A DNA stretch of 30,665 bases from a virus: positions 1 through 30,665 of the IMG/VR virus record IMGVR_UViG_3300038856_000129; one strand, given 5' to 3'. Under the pieces are notes generated by a model. The model had not been told where the DNA came from and made no database searches. It was given only the letters and a program-made list of their open reading frames with translations. Below are positions 598-16,806 of the stretch, piece after piece. The stretch's first letter is position 1; each line of letters starts with the position of its first letter. The position numbers were made by a program, and so were the translations under genes.

Positions 598-2289
598 ATG
601 GCCAGGGACTATGTCGACCGGGCAACCGACTACTGCAAGGGGGTGGCAGCGGGGCTGATCCCGGCCTGCAAGCTGACGATCGGGGCCTGCCGGCGCCAGC
701 TCGACGACCTCGAGCGCAGCGCCGCCGGCGACGCGGATTTCCCCTATGTGTTCGACCGCGCGAGCGGCAACCGTATCTGCGCCTGGATCGAGATGTTCCC
801 GCATGTCAAGGGGGCCTGGGCGCGGTCGCGCAACGCGATCGACCGCCTGATCCGGATCGAGGACTGGCAATGCTTCATCGGCACGACGGCGTTCGGCTGG
901 CTGCACCGCGACACCGGTCACCGGCGGTTCCGCGCGGTCTATATCGAGGTGCCGCGCAAGAACGCCAAGACCACGTTGTCGGCGCCGATCGCGCTGTACA
1001 TGCTGACCGCCGACGGCGAGCCCGGCGCCGAGATCGTGGCGGCGGCGACCAAGAAGGACCAGGCCTCGATCGTCTTCGGTATCGCCCAGTCGATGGTCAG
1101 GAAGACCGCCGATTTCCGCACCGAGTTCGGGGTCCAGGCGCGCGCCCATTCGATCCTGTGCCTGGAGACCGACGCGACCTTCAAGGCGATCGACAGCCGC
1201 GGCTCGACCCAGGACGGGGCGAACCTGCATTTCAGCCTGAACGACGAACTGCACGCCTGGAAGGGCCGGGATCTGTACGCGGTGCTGGAGACCGCGATGG
1301 GGTCGCGCGAACAGCCGATGATGTGGAACATCACCACGGCCGGGTCGGACTCGAGCGGCATCTGCTACGAGCAGCGCGGCTACCTGGTCAAGGTGCTGAC
1401 CCGGGTGCAGGACGACGAAACGCTGTTCGGGGTGATCTATTCGATCGACGAGGGCGACGACATCTACGCCGAGGCGACCTGGCGCAAGGCCAACCCGAAT
1501 TACGGCGTCAGCGTGCTGCCGGCCGACATGACCGCGCAGGCGCATAAGGCGAAGCAGAATCCGAAAAGCCGCGCCGACTTCCGCATGAAGCGGCTGAACC
1601 AGTGGATCAGCGCGGCGTCGGCCTATTTCGACCTCGACGAGTGGGACCGCGGCGCCCGGCCTGAACTGCGCGACACGGATTTCGCCGACGCGGAATGCAT
1701 CGTCGGCCTCGACCTCGCCAGCAAGCGCGACATCAACGCCGCGATCCGCTGGTTCGAGCGCGACGGCACGGTGACGCTGTTCTGCGATTTCTGGCTGCCG
1801 CAGGCGGCAATCGACAGCGGGGTGAACGCGGCCTACAAGGGCTGGGTCGAGGAAGGCTGGCTGCGGGTCACGCCGGGCAACGTGGTCGATTACGACGCGA
1901 TCCGCGACCGCATCGCCGACGATTACGCGCGGCTGCATGTGCTGAAGGAAGTAGCGTTCGACCCGCACCAGGCGCAGCACATGATCAACAACATGATGGC
2001 CGACGGCATTCCCTGCGTCGAGATGCGGCCGCTGGTGCTGACATTCTCGCCGGCGATGAAGCAGCTCGACGCGCTGATCGCCGACGGGCGGCTGACCCAT
2101 GACGGCAACCCGGTGATGCGCTGGATGATGGGCAATGTCGTCGCGGTCACCGACCACAAGGACAACGTCTATCCGCGCAAGGAACAGCCCGAGGCCAAGA
2201 TCGACGGCCCGGTCGCCGCGATCATGGCCTCGGCGCGCACGGTGGTGGTCAGCGAGCCGTCGCCTGTGCCGCAGCTGTTCGTGATTTGA
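598..2289 (+). CDS. terL: Phage terminase large subunit (ATPase/nuclease)
   Basis: This 563-residue protein is the DNA-packaging motor. The N-terminal ATPase half shows a Walker A motif PRKNAKTT (residues 119-126) and a Walker B/catalytic motif in SLNDELHAW (D216, E217). The C-terminal RNase H-like nuclease has acidic positions in GLDLASKRD (D372), AFDPHQAQ (D455) and KIDGPVAA (D536). This order is that of the Terminase_1 family (HK97, phiE125 type). The ATG at 598, one base after the small-subunit stop, is preferred over an in-frame ATG at 487 that would overlap the small subunit by 110 nt. It would act at the portal vertex together with the small subunit. Confidence 0.95.
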   Translation: MARDYVDRATDYCKGVAAGLIPACKLTIGACRRQLDDLERSAAGDADFPYVFDRASGNRICAWIEMFPHVKGAWARSRNAIDRLIRIEDWQCFIGTTAFGWLHRDTGHRRFRAVYIEVPRKNAKTTLSAPIALYMLTADGEPGAEIVAAATKKDQASIVFGIAQSMVRKTADFRTEFGVQARAHSILCLETDATFKAIDSRGSTQDGANLHFSLNDELHAWKGRDLYAVLETAMGSREQPMMWNITTAGSDSSGICYEQRGYLVKVLTRVQDDETLFGVIYSIDEGDDIYAEATWRKANPNYGVSVLPADMTAQAHKAKQNPKSRADFRMKRLNQWISAASAYFDLDEWDRGARPELRDTDFADAECIVGLDLASKRDINAAIRWFERDGTVTLFCDFWLPQAAIDSGVNAAYKGWVEEGWLRVTPGNVVDYDAIRDRIADDYARLHVLKEVAFDPHQAQHMINNMMADGIPCVEMRPLVLTFSPAMKQLDALIADGRLTHDGNPVMRWMMGNVVAVTDHKDNVYPRKEQPEAKIDGPVAAIMASARTVVVSEPSPVPQLFVI

Positions 2290-2302
2290 AGGATACCGTT
2301 TC

Positions 2303-3622
2303 ATGGCCAACCGCCTGATCAGCACGGCGCAGGGTGTCGTCGACCGGCTGTGGAACCTGCGCCGCGCGCCGCCCGAGCGGGTGCCGGGCGCAACCCGCTA
2401 TATCTGGGTGCCGCAATTCGCCGGCGTCAGGGTGACGGCGGAGTCGGCGCTGCAGATTTCCGCCGTGTTCGCCTGCATGTCGGTGATCTCCAAGGCGCTG
2501 GCATCGTCGGTGTGGGACGTATTCGAGCAAGCCGCCGACGGCGCCCGGGTGCCGGCCCGCGACAGCAAGCTGTTCGCCCTGCTCAACATATCGCCGAACC
2601 CGGAGATGACCGCATTCGAGTTTCGCGAGGCGTTGCTGATCGCGGCGCTCGGCTGGCATGGCGGCTATGCCGAGATCGAGCGCGACCCGGTCGGCCGGCC
2701 GCTCAATCTGTGGCCGCTGCATCCCGACCGGGTGCGCGCCGACCGTGACGCCGCCGGCGATCTGGTCTACCGGGTCCACAACGAGACCAGCGCCGAGAGT
2801 GTCATCGCCGGCCGCGACATGTTCCGTATCCACGGCCCCGGTCTCGACGGGCTGATCGGTTTCGAGATGTCGCAGATCGCCCAGGCGGCGTTCGCCCATT
2901 CGGTCGCGACCGAGCGGTTCGGCGCTGCGTTCTTCGGCAACGGCGCGCAGATGGGCGCGGTACTGGAAAGCGACCAGAACATCACGCCGGAGCAGAAAAA
3001 GGAATTGCAGGAAGGCCTGGACGCGCAGCACAAGGGCCCGGCGATGGCGCACAAGACTCTGGTGCTGGGCGGCGGCCTGAAATGGAAACAGCAGGCGATC
3101 GAGCCGGAGAAGGCGCAGTTCGTCGAGACCCGGCAGTTGCTGATCGAGGAGGTGTGCCGGTTCTTCGGCGTGCCGCCGCACAAGATCGCGCATCTGCTGC
3201 GCTCGACCAACAACAACATCGAACACCAGGGCATCGAGTTCGTCCGCGACGGCCTGACACCCTGGGCCGAACGGTTGCGCCAGGAGGCCGACCGCAAGCT
3301 GCGCCCGGTCAACAAGCGCGGCATGCGCACCCGTCTCGACCTCGAATGGCTGGCCGAGGGCGATGCCAGGACCAAGGCCGAATCGGACGCGATGCTGGTC
3401 AACGCCGGGATCATGAACCGCAACGAGGTGCGCCGCCGCCGCGGTCTCGACGGCATCCCGGACGGCGACAAGTTCACCGTGCCGCTGAACATGACGACGC
3501 TGGAAAAACTCGGCGAGGACCCGCCGCCGGCGCCGCCGCCGCCCGACGACGGCAACGAGGACGAAGAACCGGCCGGCCCCGACGAGGAAGCCGCCGCCCG
3601 GGCGCTGCGCCTGGTCGAATAA
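2303..3622 (+). CDS. Phage portal protein, HK97 family
   Basis: Portal subunit forming the dodecameric ring through which DNA enters and to which the tail attaches. The 439-residue length is normal for HK97-type portals. Family-typical segments include FACMSVISKALASSVW near the N-terminus, the central LNISPNPEMTAFEFREAL, EVCRFFGVPPHKIAHLL, and a C-terminal RNEVRRRRGLDGIPDGD motif. A Pro-rich, acidic tail (about residues 405-435) follows and is probably disordered. It lies 13 nt after the large terminase and 13 nt before the protease, the standard gene order. Confidence 0.95.
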   Translation: MANRLISTAQGVVDRLWNLRRAPPERVPGATRYIWVPQFAGVRVTAESALQISAVFACMSVISKALASSVWDVFEQAADGARVPARDSKLFALLNISPNPEMTAFEFREALLIAALGWHGGYAEIERDPVGRPLNLWPLHPDRVRADRDAAGDLVYRVHNETSAESVIAGRDMFRIHGPGLDGLIGFEMSQIAQAAFAHSVATERFGAAFFGNGAQMGAVLESDQNITPEQKKELQEGLDAQHKGPAMAHKTLVLGGGLKWKQQAIEPEKAQFVETRQLLIEEVCRFFGVPPHKIAHLLRSTNNNIEHQGIEFVRDGLTPWAERLRQEADRKLRPVNKRGMRTRLDLEWLAEGDARTKAESDAMLVNAGIMNRNEVRRRRGLDGIPDGDKFTVPLNMTTLEKLGEDPPPAPPPPDDGNEDEEPAGPDEEAAARALRLVE

Positions 3623-12920: not shown

Positions 12921-13649
12921 ATGGCGGAACAACTCCTGAGCCCGCAGAAACTGTGGCTAGGCGGCTACGATCTGAGCACGCGGCTGAACGCGCTGGCGAT
13001 CGAGAACGCCGCCGAGGCGGTCGACGTGACCGCGTTCGGGGATGTCAGCCGCGCGTTCGCCGGCGGGCTGAAATCGGTTTCCGCCAGCCATGCCGGCTTC
13101 TGGGACGCGGCCGGCGGCGTCGACGCCGAGCTGTTCGACCGCCTGACCCTGGCCGACGCGCCGATGTCGCTGGCGGTCACCGACGGCGCCGAGGGCGACA
13201 CCGCGTTCACCTTCCGCGCGCTGCACGCGGAATATTCGCCCGGCGCGTCGATCGGCGAGGCCTTCACCTTCTCGATCGCGGCGCAGTCGGGCGCCGGCGA
13301 CGGGCTGGTGCGCGGCACGCTGATGCATAACGGCGCCGAGACCGCGACGGTCAACGGCGCCGGCCGCCAGCTCGGCGCCGTGGCTGCCGGCCAGAAGCTG
13401 TTCGGCGCGCTGCATGTCACCGCCGCCTCGGGCACCGCGCCGACCCTCGATATCACGGTCGAATCCGACGACAACGCCGGTTTCACCACGGCCGTGACCC
13501 GCATGACGTTTTCCCAGCAGACCGGCATCGGTTTCGAATGGCCGGCGCCGGTGGCGGGGCCGATTACCGACGACTGGTGGCGCCTGGTCATCACCATCGG
13601 CGGCACCACGCCGTCGTTCGAGTTCGCCGCAATCCTCGCAATCCAGTAA
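12921..13649 (+). CDS. Tail tube-like protein (copy 1, longer)
   Basis: A 242-residue protein with the tail-tube motif LWLGGYDLSTRLNALAIENAAEAVDVTAFGDVSRAFAGGLKS. This matches the second gene downstream (AVDVTAFGDVSRAFAGGLKS here, TVDITAMGDTSREMLGGLKS there). It is about 107 residues longer than copy 2; the extra C-terminal domain (about residues 135-242; LHVTAASGTAPTLDITVES, WWRLVITIGGTTPSFEFAA) is beta-rich. It could be the main tube subunit with a surface-exposed domain, or a minor tube protein. No strong ribosome site is visible, unlike copy 2, which hints at lower expression. Confidence 0.75.
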   Translation: MAEQLLSPQKLWLGGYDLSTRLNALAIENAAEAVDVTAFGDVSRAFAGGLKSVSASHAGFWDAAGGVDAELFDRLTLADAPMSLAVTDGAEGDTAFTFRALHAEYSPGASIGEAFTFSIAAQSGAGDGLVRGTLMHNGAETATVNGAGRQLGAVAAGQKLFGALHVTAASGTAPTLDITVESDDNAGFTTAVTRMTFSQQTGIGFEWPAPVAGPITDDWWRLVITIGGTTPSFEFAAILAIQ

Positions 13650-13661
13650 CAGGAGGTCTCC

Positions 13662-14069
13662 ATGGCCGAATCGGTCGCCAGTAATTTTTTCCTCTCGGTC
13701 GGCGGTGTCGACCTGTCGGACCATGTGCGGTCGCTGACCCTGAGCCATGAGGGCGAGACGGTCGATATCACCGCGATGGGCGATACCAGCCGCGAAATGC
13801 TCGGTGGGCTGAAAAGCTGGTCGATGGAGGTCGAGTTCAACCAGGACTTCGCCGCGGCCAAGGTGGACGCGACCCTGTTCCCGCTGCTGGCGACCACGGT
13901 GGCGCTGGTGTTCCGGCCCGATACCGGCGCGGTCTCGGCGACCAACCCGGAATTCACCGGCAACGCGATCCTGACCTCGTACCCGCCGCTGGCCGGCAGC
14001 GTCGGCGATGCCCATGTCACCAGCGTGAGTTTCACCGGCAGCGGCGACCTCGCCCGCGCCACGGCCTGA
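13662..14069 (+). CDS. Tail tube protein (copy 2, probably major)
   Basis: A 135-residue protein: FFLSVGGVDLSDHVRSLTLSHEGETVDITAMGDTSREMLGGLKSWSMEVEFNQDF, followed by VALVFRPDTGAVSATNPEFTG and the C-terminal strand VTSVSFTGSGDLARATA. This is the compact tail-tube fold pattern found in phages with short tube proteins. It has a strong AGGAGG site 6 nt before the start, consistent with high expression, and directly precedes the chaperone genes as major tail proteins do. Confidence 0.8.
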   Translation: MAESVASNFFLSVGGVDLSDHVRSLTLSHEGETVDITAMGDTSREMLGGLKSWSMEVEFNQDFAAAKVDATLFPLLATTVALVFRPDTGAVSATNPEFTGNAILTSYPPLAGSVGDAHVTSVSFTGSGDLARATA

Positions 14070-14074
14070 CCGCC

Positions 14075-14467
14075 ATGAGCACGACGAAAAAGAAAGCGCC
14101 GCCGGCGCTGCTGGACCGCGACGCGATCCTGGCCGCCGACGATCTGCCGGTGCGCGTCGTCGATGTCCCGGAATGGGGCGGCGCGGTGCGGCTGCGGTCG
14201 CTGACCGGCCAGCAGCGCGACGCCTTCGATACCGAGACCTATAAAGAAGCGATGGCGGCGGACAAGCCCGGCGCCGGCCCGCGCATCGTGCGCGCGGCCC
14301 TGGTCCGGTGGTGCGCCATCGGCGCGGACGGTGAATTGCTGTTCGCGCCGGACGACCTCGCGGCGCTGGCGGGCAAGAACGGGGCCGTCCTGGACCGGTT
14401 GTGGGCGGCGGCGCAGGAACATAACGGCTTTACCGACAGGGACCTCGAGGAACTGGCGGGAAACTGA
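14075..14467 (+). CDS. Tail assembly chaperone, G-like
   Basis: A 130-residue protein with AVRLRSLTGQQRDAFDTETYKEAMAADK, IVRAALVRWCAIGADGELLFAPDDLAAL, and LDRLWAAAQEHNGFTDRDLEELAGN. This is the layout of small tail-assembly chaperones ('v-vRgLtg-qrd-fe--v', 'lv--sl-De-G-plF---di--L'), functional counterparts of lambda gpG. It lies directly before the -1 frame T-like reading and before the tape measure. Its last two sense codons, GGA AAC, form a slippery heptamer with the preceding G, so a fraction of ribosomes should make a longer GT fusion. Confidence 0.85.
   Translation: MSTTKKKAPPALLDRDAILAADDLPVRVVDVPEWGGAVRLRSLTGQQRDAFDTETYKEAMAADKPGAGPRIVRAALVRWCAIGADGELLFAPDDLAALAGKNGAVLDRLWAAAQEHNGFTDRDLEELAGN
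14458..14464 (+). promoter_or_regulatory. Programmed -1 frameshift slippery site GGGAAAC
   Basis: The heptamer G GGA AAC fits X XXY YYZ in the G-gene frame and ends at the base before the TGA stop. After a one-base backward slip the ribosome reads GGG AAA CTG and continues for 84 codons to a stop at 14716-14718. The lambda G/T site is GGGAAAG, one base different. A small hairpin (GCGC-TTC-GCGC, 14484-14494) lies about 20 nt downstream and might stimulate slippage. Confidence 0.8.
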
Positions 14468-14718
14468 TCGCCCGGCCGTGGCGGCGCTTCGCGCTGGCGC
14501 TGTCGCTGCGGCTGGGCATTCCGGTCGGTGAGATGCTGCGCCGCATGACATCGCGCGAGATCGCGGAATACCGGGCGCTGTTTCTGCTCGAGGCGCGCGA
14601 GGATGAAACCCCGACGGCACCGGCGCCGGCGACCACGCCGGAAGACGACGTGCAGGCGTCACTGGAGCGCCTGGCGCTGGAGAACCTGGATAAGGTCAAC
14701 GCGCCGCGTCGGCGCTGA
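14464..14718 (+). CDS. T-like domain of tail chaperone, made by -1 frameshift
   Basis: An 84-codon reading in the -1 frame of the G-like gene, beginning right after the slippery site: LIARPWRRFALALSLRLGIP, then VGEMLRRMTSREIAEYRALFLLEARED. The segment 'RF---La--LG-pv-eml-rmtsrEiaEy-a---le' is the pattern of T-domain tail chaperones, the domain that binds tube protein and tape measure. It has no good start of its own (an internal ATG at 14533 would drop half the domain), so it is most likely made only as a 214-residue GT fusion. Its end overlaps the opposite-strand immunity gene by 23 nt. Confidence 0.78.
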   Translation: MIARPWRRFALALSLRLGIPVGEMLRRMTSREIAEYRALFLLEAREDETPTAPAPATTPEDDVQASLERLALENLDKVNAPRRR

Positions 14719-15031
14719 TATCTGCCTCGAAGTCATGCTGACAGAAGCGGCATATCCGGGCCGCCGCCCTTACGGTCTCGGCGCAGTCCGGGCAGATCTT
14801 GGTCGCGACATCGGCCGCCGCGAGGGTTCCGGTTTCATCATAAACCGACGGGGGCGCCGCTGCCGTCGCCGTGACCGACCAGACGAAAGCGGCGACCCAG
14901 CCGAGCAGGGTCCAGCCGAGCAGGAAATCGAGGAAGAATATCGCCGTGCCCTGATGATGCCGCCGGATGACGGCGACGATGGCAGGCAGAAAATAGACGG
15001 CGACGAGGATAACCGCGAGCATCAGTTCCAT
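14696..15031 (-). CDS. Superinfection immunity membrane protein with zinc ribbon
   Basis: A 111-residue membrane protein on the strand opposite the tail genes. The N-terminal part matches the Imm_superinfect family (phage T4 Imm-like): LAVILVAVYFLPAIVAVIRRHHQGTAIFFLDFLLGWTLLGWVAAFVW, giving two membrane segments with the LGWTLLGW hallmark. The C-terminal part has a zinc-ribbon CPDC-x10-CRFC. T4 Imm blocks DNA entry by related phages; a similar exclusion role in the inner membrane is inferred. The ATG at 15031 has GGAG 8 nt upstream; an upstream TTG would add 7 residues. It lies between chaperone and tape measure genes, which are normally adjacent, so it is an inserted moron gene. Confidence 0.85.
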   Translation of the reverse strand: MELMLAVILVAVYFLPAIVAVIRRHHQGTAIFFLDFLLGWTLLGWVAAFVWSVTATAAAPPSVYDETGTLAAADVATKICPDCAETVRAAARICRFCQHDFEADISADAAR

Positions 15032-15051
15032 ATCGAGGACTCCGTTAAGCA

Positions 15052-15081
15052 ACTATAACCCGGCCGGCGCGGTCCTGTCGA
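15052..15081 (-). promoter_or_regulatory. Candidate sigma-70 promoter for the immunity gene
   Basis: On the minus strand, TCGACA (15081-15076) and TATAGT (15057-15052) are separated by 18 bases, each one mismatch from the TTGACA and TATAAT consensus. The -10 box is about 20 nt upstream of the immunity gene start at 15031, leaving room for its GGAG site. The fit and position suggest independent expression of this moron in lysogeny. No experimental support is available. Confidence 0.5.
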
Positions 15082-15099: not shown

Positions 15100-16806
15100 A
15101 TGGCAACCACGGTAGGCGCCCTCTCGGTCGATCTGCGCGCCAATTCGGCGGCGTTTGCCGCCGATATGGGCAAGGCGCGCCGCGCCGTCGATTCCAGTGC
15201 GACCCGGATGAATCGCGGGCTGGCGGCGCTCGACCGCGGGTTTGCCGGGCTGACCAGACGTATCAGCGCCTTCGCTGTCGGCATTGCCGCCGGTGTCGGT
15301 GTCGGCGGCCTGGCGTTGCTCACCAAGCGGTCGATCGAATCGGCCGACGCGATCGGCAAGGCGGCCGACAAGGTCGGGCTGGGCGTGGAGGCGCTGCAGG
15401 AATACCGCTTCGCCGCCGAGCAGACCGGGGTGGCGCAGAAGACCCTCGACATGGCGATGCAGCGGTTCAGCCGCCGGGTCGGTGAGGCGGCGCGCGGCCA
15501 GGGCGAGTTGCGCGATACGCTGAAGGCCTACAATATCGACGTGGTCGACGCCCAGGGCAAGGCGCGGGCGCTTGAGGACGTGCTCGACGATTACGCCGAC
15601 GCGGTCGCCAATGCGTCATCGCAGCAGGAACAGCTGCGTCTGTCGTTCAAGGCCTTCGATTCGGAAGGCGCGGCGCTGGTCAACCTGATGCGCAGGGGAT
15701 CGGCCGGGGTAGCTGAACTGCGCCAGGAGGCGCGCAATCTCGGCATCGTGCTGGACGAGTCCATGGTGCGCCAGGCCGAGGCCGCGAACGATCAGCTGGA
15801 GCGTATGAAGCGCATCGTCGGCGTCGCGTTCCAGCGCGTGTTCCTGCAACTGGCGCCGTCGATCGAACAGCTCGGCCTCGCCTTTGCCCGCGCCGCCCCG
15901 AAAATATCGGCCTTTGTCGACCGCATCATCAAGGCGGTCATCGGGGTCGATGCGCTCGGGCTGCAGGGGTTGCAGCGCGAATTGAAGTCGCTCGACGCGA
16001 CCCTGGTCGGCATGATGATGTCGCGCGAGGACCTGAAGACCCTGACCGACGAAGAACTGGCACAGCGCAAGGAAGAACTGCTGGCGCTGCGCGATCAGCG
16101 CGACGAACTGGAACGGTTGATCGCGACCCGCGAGAAGGAGGCGGCGGCGCGCGCCGCGCTGTTCAAGGCGCCGGTCGCCCAAACCTCGACCGGGGCCGCC
16201 GGCGACACCGCGGAGGTTCGGTCCGCCCGGCGCCTGGCGGAAGCGACCGACGATACGACGGATGCGGCGAAGCGCAACAAGGCGGCATTCGACGAGGCCG
16301 GCAGCGCCGCCGCCCGCGCCTTCGGGGAGGCTGTCCTGGAGGGCGAGAAGCTGCGCGACGTGGTGCGGAACCTGGCCAACGACCTGCTGCGGCTGCTGAC
16401 CCGGCAATTCGTCACCAACCCGCTGGGCGATTTCCTGAGCGCGGCGGCGGGCAGTTTCTTCACCGGCGGCGCCGGGCCGGTGCCGGACGCGGCGGCGGCG
16501 GGGATCCCCGGCGGCGGCTTCGCCCATGGCGGCCAGTTCACGGTTCAAGGGCGCGGCGGCACCGATGCCAACCGGGTGTCGATGGACCTGACCCGGGGCG
16601 AGCGGGTGACGGTCGAGACGGCGGCGCAGCAGCGGCGCGGCGCGGGTTCGGGCGGCGGCACGGTCAATAATTTCGTGGTCGACATGCGCGGCGCCAGCGT
16701 CGAGGCGGTGGCCCGGCTGGAGCGCATGGTGGACCGGATCAACGGCTCGATCGAGCAGCGCGCGGTCGACGCGGTGGTCGATGTGCAGCGCCGCGGCCTC
16801 GCCTGA
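15100..16806 (+). CDS. Tail tape measure protein
   Basis: A 568-residue protein that sets tail length and travels with the DNA. The N-terminus (VGALSVDLRANSAAFAADMGKARRAVDSSATRMNR) has the TP901/lambda-type tape measure pattern. A hydrophobic segment (AFAVGIAAGVGVGGLALLT, about residues 58-76) follows, then long helical stretches (ADKVGLGVEALQEYRFAAEQTG, QQEQLRLSFKAFDSEGAALV, ELAQRKEELLALRDQRDELERLIATREKEAAAR). The C-terminus is Gly-rich, with GGQFTVQGRGGTDANRVSMDLTRGERVTV, common in lambda-like tape measures. GGGAG lies 9 nt before the start. At about 0.15 nm per residue the expected tail is roughly 85 nm. Confidence 0.92.
   Translation: MATTVGALSVDLRANSAAFAADMGKARRAVDSSATRMNRGLAALDRGFAGLTRRISAFAVGIAAGVGVGGLALLTKRSIESADAIGKAADKVGLGVEALQEYRFAAEQTGVAQKTLDMAMQRFSRRVGEAARGQGELRDTLKAYNIDVVDAQGKARALEDVLDDYADAVANASSQQEQLRLSFKAFDSEGAALVNLMRRGSAGVAELRQEARNLGIVLDESMVRQAEAANDQLERMKRIVGVAFQRVFLQLAPSIEQLGLAFARAAPKISAFVDRIIKAVIGVDALGLQGLQRELKSLDATLVGMMMSREDLKTLTDEELAQRKEELLALRDQRDELERLIATREKEAAARAALFKAPVAQTSTGAAGDTAEVRSARRLAEATDDTTDAAKRNKAAFDEAGSAAARAFGEAVLEGEKLRDVVRNLANDLLRLLTRQFVTNPLGDFLSAAAGSFFTGGAGPVPDAAAAGIPGGGFAHGGQFTVQGRGGTDANRVSMDLTRGERVTVETAAQQRRGAGSGGGTVNNFVVDMRGASVEAVARLERMVDRINGSIEQRAVDAVVDVQRRGLA

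Follow-up and report, generated by a model that had tools for sequence, protein, structure and literature searches.

The window, that is the complete stretch of 30,665 nucleotides of viral DNA analysed here, carries a tail gene cluster in which the tail tube gene, G, T and the tape measure gene follow one another, with overlapping G and T readings and with tail-completion genes also located upstream. The major tail (tube) protein is encoded just 5' of G (13662-14069, plus strand; PHROG_4574, E 4.6e-31), and the tape measure protein is encoded 3' of T (15100-16806, plus strand; PHROG_9483, E 1.2e-46, as well as other tape-measure families). G itself (14075-14467, plus strand) specifies a tail assembly chaperone of 130 aa as judged from its match to PHROG_344 (E 4.4e-22), and terminates with TGA at 14465-14467. 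The T extension (14464-14718, plus strand) comprises 84 codons and a stop codon in the -1 frame, and is recognised through PHROG_337, a family HMM and the lambda T profile.

Two further features of this region are recorded here. The tube gene is the second of two tail-tube-like genes in tandem, the first of which (12921-13649, PHROG_9522) has an extra C-terminal part with a weak match to PHROG_427. On the minus strand, a gene for a 118-aa protein (14696-15052) is located between T and the tape measure gene and shares 23 bases with the 3' end of T. Its product pairs a zinc ribbon (UPF0547, E 2e-9) with a membrane portion that falls into the superinfection-immunity family (PF14373, E 2e-16). Relative L108 possesses a counterpart of this gene (2077-2346, minus strand; 37% identity, E 3e-16), which occupies the same stretch downstream of G and is likewise encoded on the reverse strand.

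The slippery heptamer and the -1 reading frame

G ends with the codons GCG GGA AAC TGA, in which the slippery heptamer GGGAAAC (14458-14464, plus strand) is read as G_GGA_AAC and the stop is the codon right after it. A preceding sequence-only reading of this DNA had placed the heptamer in the correct phase immediately before the G stop, and both its coordinates and its phase proved right. The same is true for the lengths given there for the -1 reading and for the fusion protein: the -1 frame contains no stop codon between 14425 and 14715 and is closed by one at 14716-14718; counted from CTG at 14464 it holds 84 codons (LIARPWRRFALALSLRLGIPVGEMLRRMTSREIAEYRALFLLEAREDETPTAPAPATTPEDDVQASLERLALENLDKVNAPRRR), giving a predicted fusion of 130+84 = 214 aa. 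The T-domain motif described in that reading is present as well, albeit with the spacing RF-x3-L-x3-LG (RFALALSLRLG) rather than with x4 in the second gap.

In-phase strings of the XXXYYYZ type are rare in this phage. Nine occur in the ~7200 codons of the main plus-strand genes, and YYY is AAA or TTT in only four of them. Synonymous resampling of the last 16 codons of G, which drew on the window's own codon usage, produced any in-phase heptamer of the AAA/TTT type in 2.0% of the trials and GGGAAAC at the exact site in 1.6%. Because in-phase heptamers are scarce both in the genes of the window and in the resampled ends of G, the site is not attributable to chance. A point against the site in the window is that heptamers with a terminal AAC slip less readily in E. 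coli than heptamers with a terminal AAG. Scans of the window for Rfam families and tRNAs yielded no match.

The composition of the -1 frame closely resembles that of G, with GC contents at the three codon positions of 0.76/0.51/0.86 as compared to 0.75/0.49/0.88, and its mean log codon usage is +0.66, whereas the two remaining frames score -0.35 and -0.25. That is, the codon signature of the -1 frame is that of a genuine gene of this phage, unlike that of the other two frames. The earliest ATG, GTG or TTG in the -1 frame is the ATG at 14533 and falls halfway through the conserved T motif; this bears out the earlier claim that T has no good start of its own. This observation also touches on the possibility that ribosomes re-initiate behind the G stop and so make T separately, either from the CTG at 14464, which overlaps the TGA, or from the ATG at 14533. 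The layout is compatible with such coupling, as G ends right where the T domain begins. However, the window offers no ATG, GTG or TTG before 14533, and initiation at this ATG would drop RPWRRFALALSLRLGIPVGE, which is half of the conserved motif.

T family membership and the conserved change of frame

Searching Pfam and NCBIfam directly with the G and T proteins of the window gave no match, and PHROGs and family profiles were therefore needed. The G proteins of 28/28 aligned relatives match PHROG_344 and 10/28 match the Pfam family Phage_TAC_1, while comparison of the window-family G with lambda G by hhalign returned a probability of 2.7% and an E of 0.017, the two being too divergent for reliable alignment. 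T of the window matches PHROG_337 (tail protein) weakly (E 6e-5), and a T-family HMM built without the window recovers it at an iE of 2.1e-16 (leave-one-out). The T family profile in turn matches lambda T with an E of 3.7e-7 over 61 columns (hhalign), and 19/28 of the relatives' T sequences independently match Pfam Phage_tail_T (PF06223). The window T thus joins the lambda T family via the family HMM and not via a direct Pfam match, and by these profile similarities the -1 reading is a member of this family.

T of the window keeps the N-terminal motif of ~38 residues and lacks the C-terminal half of its long relatives. Such shortness could indicate that T is a decayed remnant, in which case the frame break would reflect a mutation or sequencing error and G would be the sole product. 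However, the break recurs at the identical place and in the same direction across divergent relatives, several of which (L007, L032, L042, L047 and L052) have an equally short T, and coding composition is retained in the -1 frame. Decay is accordingly an exceedingly improbable explanation.

Relatives were compared in two sets. The first set, gathered by means of the G protein, comprises 66 viral and 4 genomic loci with 31-60% identity (best segment). In every locus of this set in which T was found, its frame differs from that of G, the shift being -1 in nearly all cases, and a usable T start is absent in nearly all loci. The held-out set consists of 122 loci obtained with other queries, which yielded 57 non-redundant T domains including those of three named phages. 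Here, T is in the -1 frame in 57/57 and an in-phase heptamer is present in 49/57, counts which represent non-independent trials as the loci are mutually related; the expectation that related phages conserve heptamer and phase is borne out by these numbers. The heptamers comprise 24 AAAAAAC, 18 GGGAAAC, 5 GGGTTTC, 1 AAAAAAA and 1 GGGAAAA, and the remaining eight relatives have CTAAAAG, a T_TTC-like string or GGGGGAA right before the stop.

The sequence-only reading had named relatives with an intact T and no slippery site as evidence against a frameshift. A canonical heptamer is missing from a minority of relatives. Most of these carry another shift-prone string in the corresponding position, i.e. 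CTAAAAG, ATTTC, GGGGGAA ahead of the stop, or AAAAGC combined with a +1 T, but two groups of the first set (L055/L056 and L060-L062) have an intact T in the -1 frame with neither a shift-prone string nor a start codon evident at the junction. GGGGGAA, a documented slippery motif of joined genes in actinobacteriophages (PRFect paper, PMC10885494), immediately precedes the stop codon of G, which is TGA or TAA, and takes the place of a canonical heptamer in L038, L077, L081, L083, L107 and L133.

Most of the GGGGGAA loci also have a coupling-compatible ATGA, and this overlap in the few relatives with GGGGGAATGA (L038, L081, L083, L107 and L133) speaks for re-initiation. In L077, however, the GGGGGAA site precedes TAA and no start is present, and only 6/57 of the held-out relatives have a start codon of any kind close to where T begins. 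Taken together with the missing start in the window, this renders re-initiation very improbable, although somewhat less so than decay of T.

Slippage of RNA polymerase during transcription, rather than of the ribosome, represents another way to change the frame, and in several relatives the site contains 6 to 9 consecutive A, which could permit it. However, GGGAAAC is frequent in the family, as seen in 18/57 of the held-out relatives, and the phase relative to the codons is kept. The site in the window is just GGG then AAA, which is too short for efficient polymerase slippage, and we consider a transcriptional origin of the shift to be as remote as decay. Ribosomal frameshifting hence remains our preferred reading.

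As a separate observation, L017 and L021-L025 all share ACSAAAAGCACTGAAG near the G stop, and their T follows it in the +1 frame; here, AAA-A followed by GC would let tRNA-Lys slip forward by one. The PHROG_344 chaperone family seems, as judged from these sequences, to use both directions of shift.

Relation to known frameshift sites

The Streptomyces phages Dubu (gp13/gp14, NC_070828) and phiSASD1 (gp35/gp35.1, NC_014229) have a homologous G (34% identity) and T in the same gene order. As in the window, GGGAAAC directly precedes TGA and T is in the -1 frame, beginning with LTARPERLFYF or LIARP, but their T is longer, with about 116-118 codons versus 84. Rhodococcus phage Jflix2 (gp18/gp19, OQ938594) has a homologous G (40%) and T as well, whereas its site differs, being GGGTTTC located 40 nt before the G stop. 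Regarding annotation, it had been anticipated that routine gene calling would report only the short G protein and lose the T domain. This holds in part: T is a separate gene in Madraxi, whereas the annotations of Dubu and phiSASD1 already list both a short protein and one joined from two pieces, and that of Jflix2 a joined gene.

Phage lambda shares with the window the gene order of its G/G-T module, the kind and phase of the heptamer and a homologous T. The lambda site is indeed GGGAAAG, as the sequence-only reading had stated for this junction, so that its second codon is AAG rather than AAC, and it begins 22 nt before the G stop as compared to 7 nt in the window. Haloviruses HCTV-1 and HCTV-2 have G_GGA_AAC and A_AAA_AAC at their G-T junctions (review PMC5009743). 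Because of these precedents in Dubu/phiSASD1, Jflix2, lambda and the haloviruses, the kind of frameshift, the heptamer and its place are all already known.

A candidate stimulatory hairpin and the proposed mechanism

A hairpin is predicted in the mRNA at 14466-14521 (plus strand; MFE -46.8 kcal/mol, 81 nt), and its 17-bp main stem begins at position 14470, i.e. five bases 3' of the heptamer, which is the usual spacing for frameshift stimulators. The 60 nt 3' of the heptamer fold with -39.6 kcal/mol, which is among the lowest 0.3% of window positions; Dubu and phiSASD1 have no comparable hairpin (-20.3 and -14.6 kcal/mol, respectively). Relative to permutations preserving both the T protein and the set of codons used for it, the hairpin has a z of ~-3.7 and 0/1000 permutations were as low, as compared to a z of only -2.0 against plain dinucleotide shuffles, owing to the high GC content of this stretch. 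For the first 28 sequences, which include the window, mean z was -1.35 to -1.41 just past the heptamer and -0.30 at control positions (p 2e-5). The same protein-preserving test gave a weak replication in 49 held-out relatives (mean z -0.70, p 0.013). A post hoc split by the distance of the stop from the heptamer gave -1.09 for the 22 relatives in which it is at most 6 nt and -0.39 for the others.

Based on these predicted folds, the hairpin is a plausible, lineage-limited candidate stimulator. That a strong hairpin ~5 bases downstream has been selected for this purpose in the present phage and in a subset of relatives with the stop directly after the heptamer is a tentative suggestion that we regard as rather doubtful. 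Stimulators do not seem to take part in the shift in certain tailed phages, for which lambda is one of the cited cases (PMC5009743). A Shine-Dalgarno-like stimulator 5' of the heptamer (GAGG/GGAGG, as in dnaX) was also considered and rejected: a nominal signal in the first 28 sequences (p 8e-4) was followed by p 0.14 in the 49 held-out relatives, and z is -0.29 in the window.

Taken together, a frameshift is strongly supported because gene order, both protein families, the phase of the heptamer, the missing T start and the family-wide pairing of shifted T and slippery site at a constant place all agree. From these sequence comparisons we infer that the phage very probably makes G and G-T fusion tail chaperones by -1 ribosomal slippage at GGGAAAC. 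Most ribosomes would end G at the TGA and release the 130-aa chaperone, whereas a minority would slip back by one base while GGA is paired with tRNA-Gly and AAC with tRNA-Asn. The tRNAs would re-pair on GGG and AAA and reading would resume with CTG ATC GCC, thereby yielding the 214-aa fusion with the junction ...ELAGN-LIARPWRRF... The stable hairpin past the site may raise the rate of slipping. The roles of gpG and gpGT of lambda and their ratio of 30:1 have been described (review PMC5009743). By analogy, G would form a coat on the tape measure protein, and the few G-T molecules would use their T part to recruit tail-tube subunits.

The locus adds a clear and well-conserved example of a tail-chaperone frameshift from the sequence of an unclassified phage that had not been catalogued before. 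Members of the PHROG_344 family reach the T part almost exclusively through a change of frame, and annotation of such phages should join the G and T readings. If the hairpin acts as a stimulator, this junction would provide a simple system for testing whether mRNA structure tunes the ratio of G to G-T at tail-chaperone sites of GC-rich phages.
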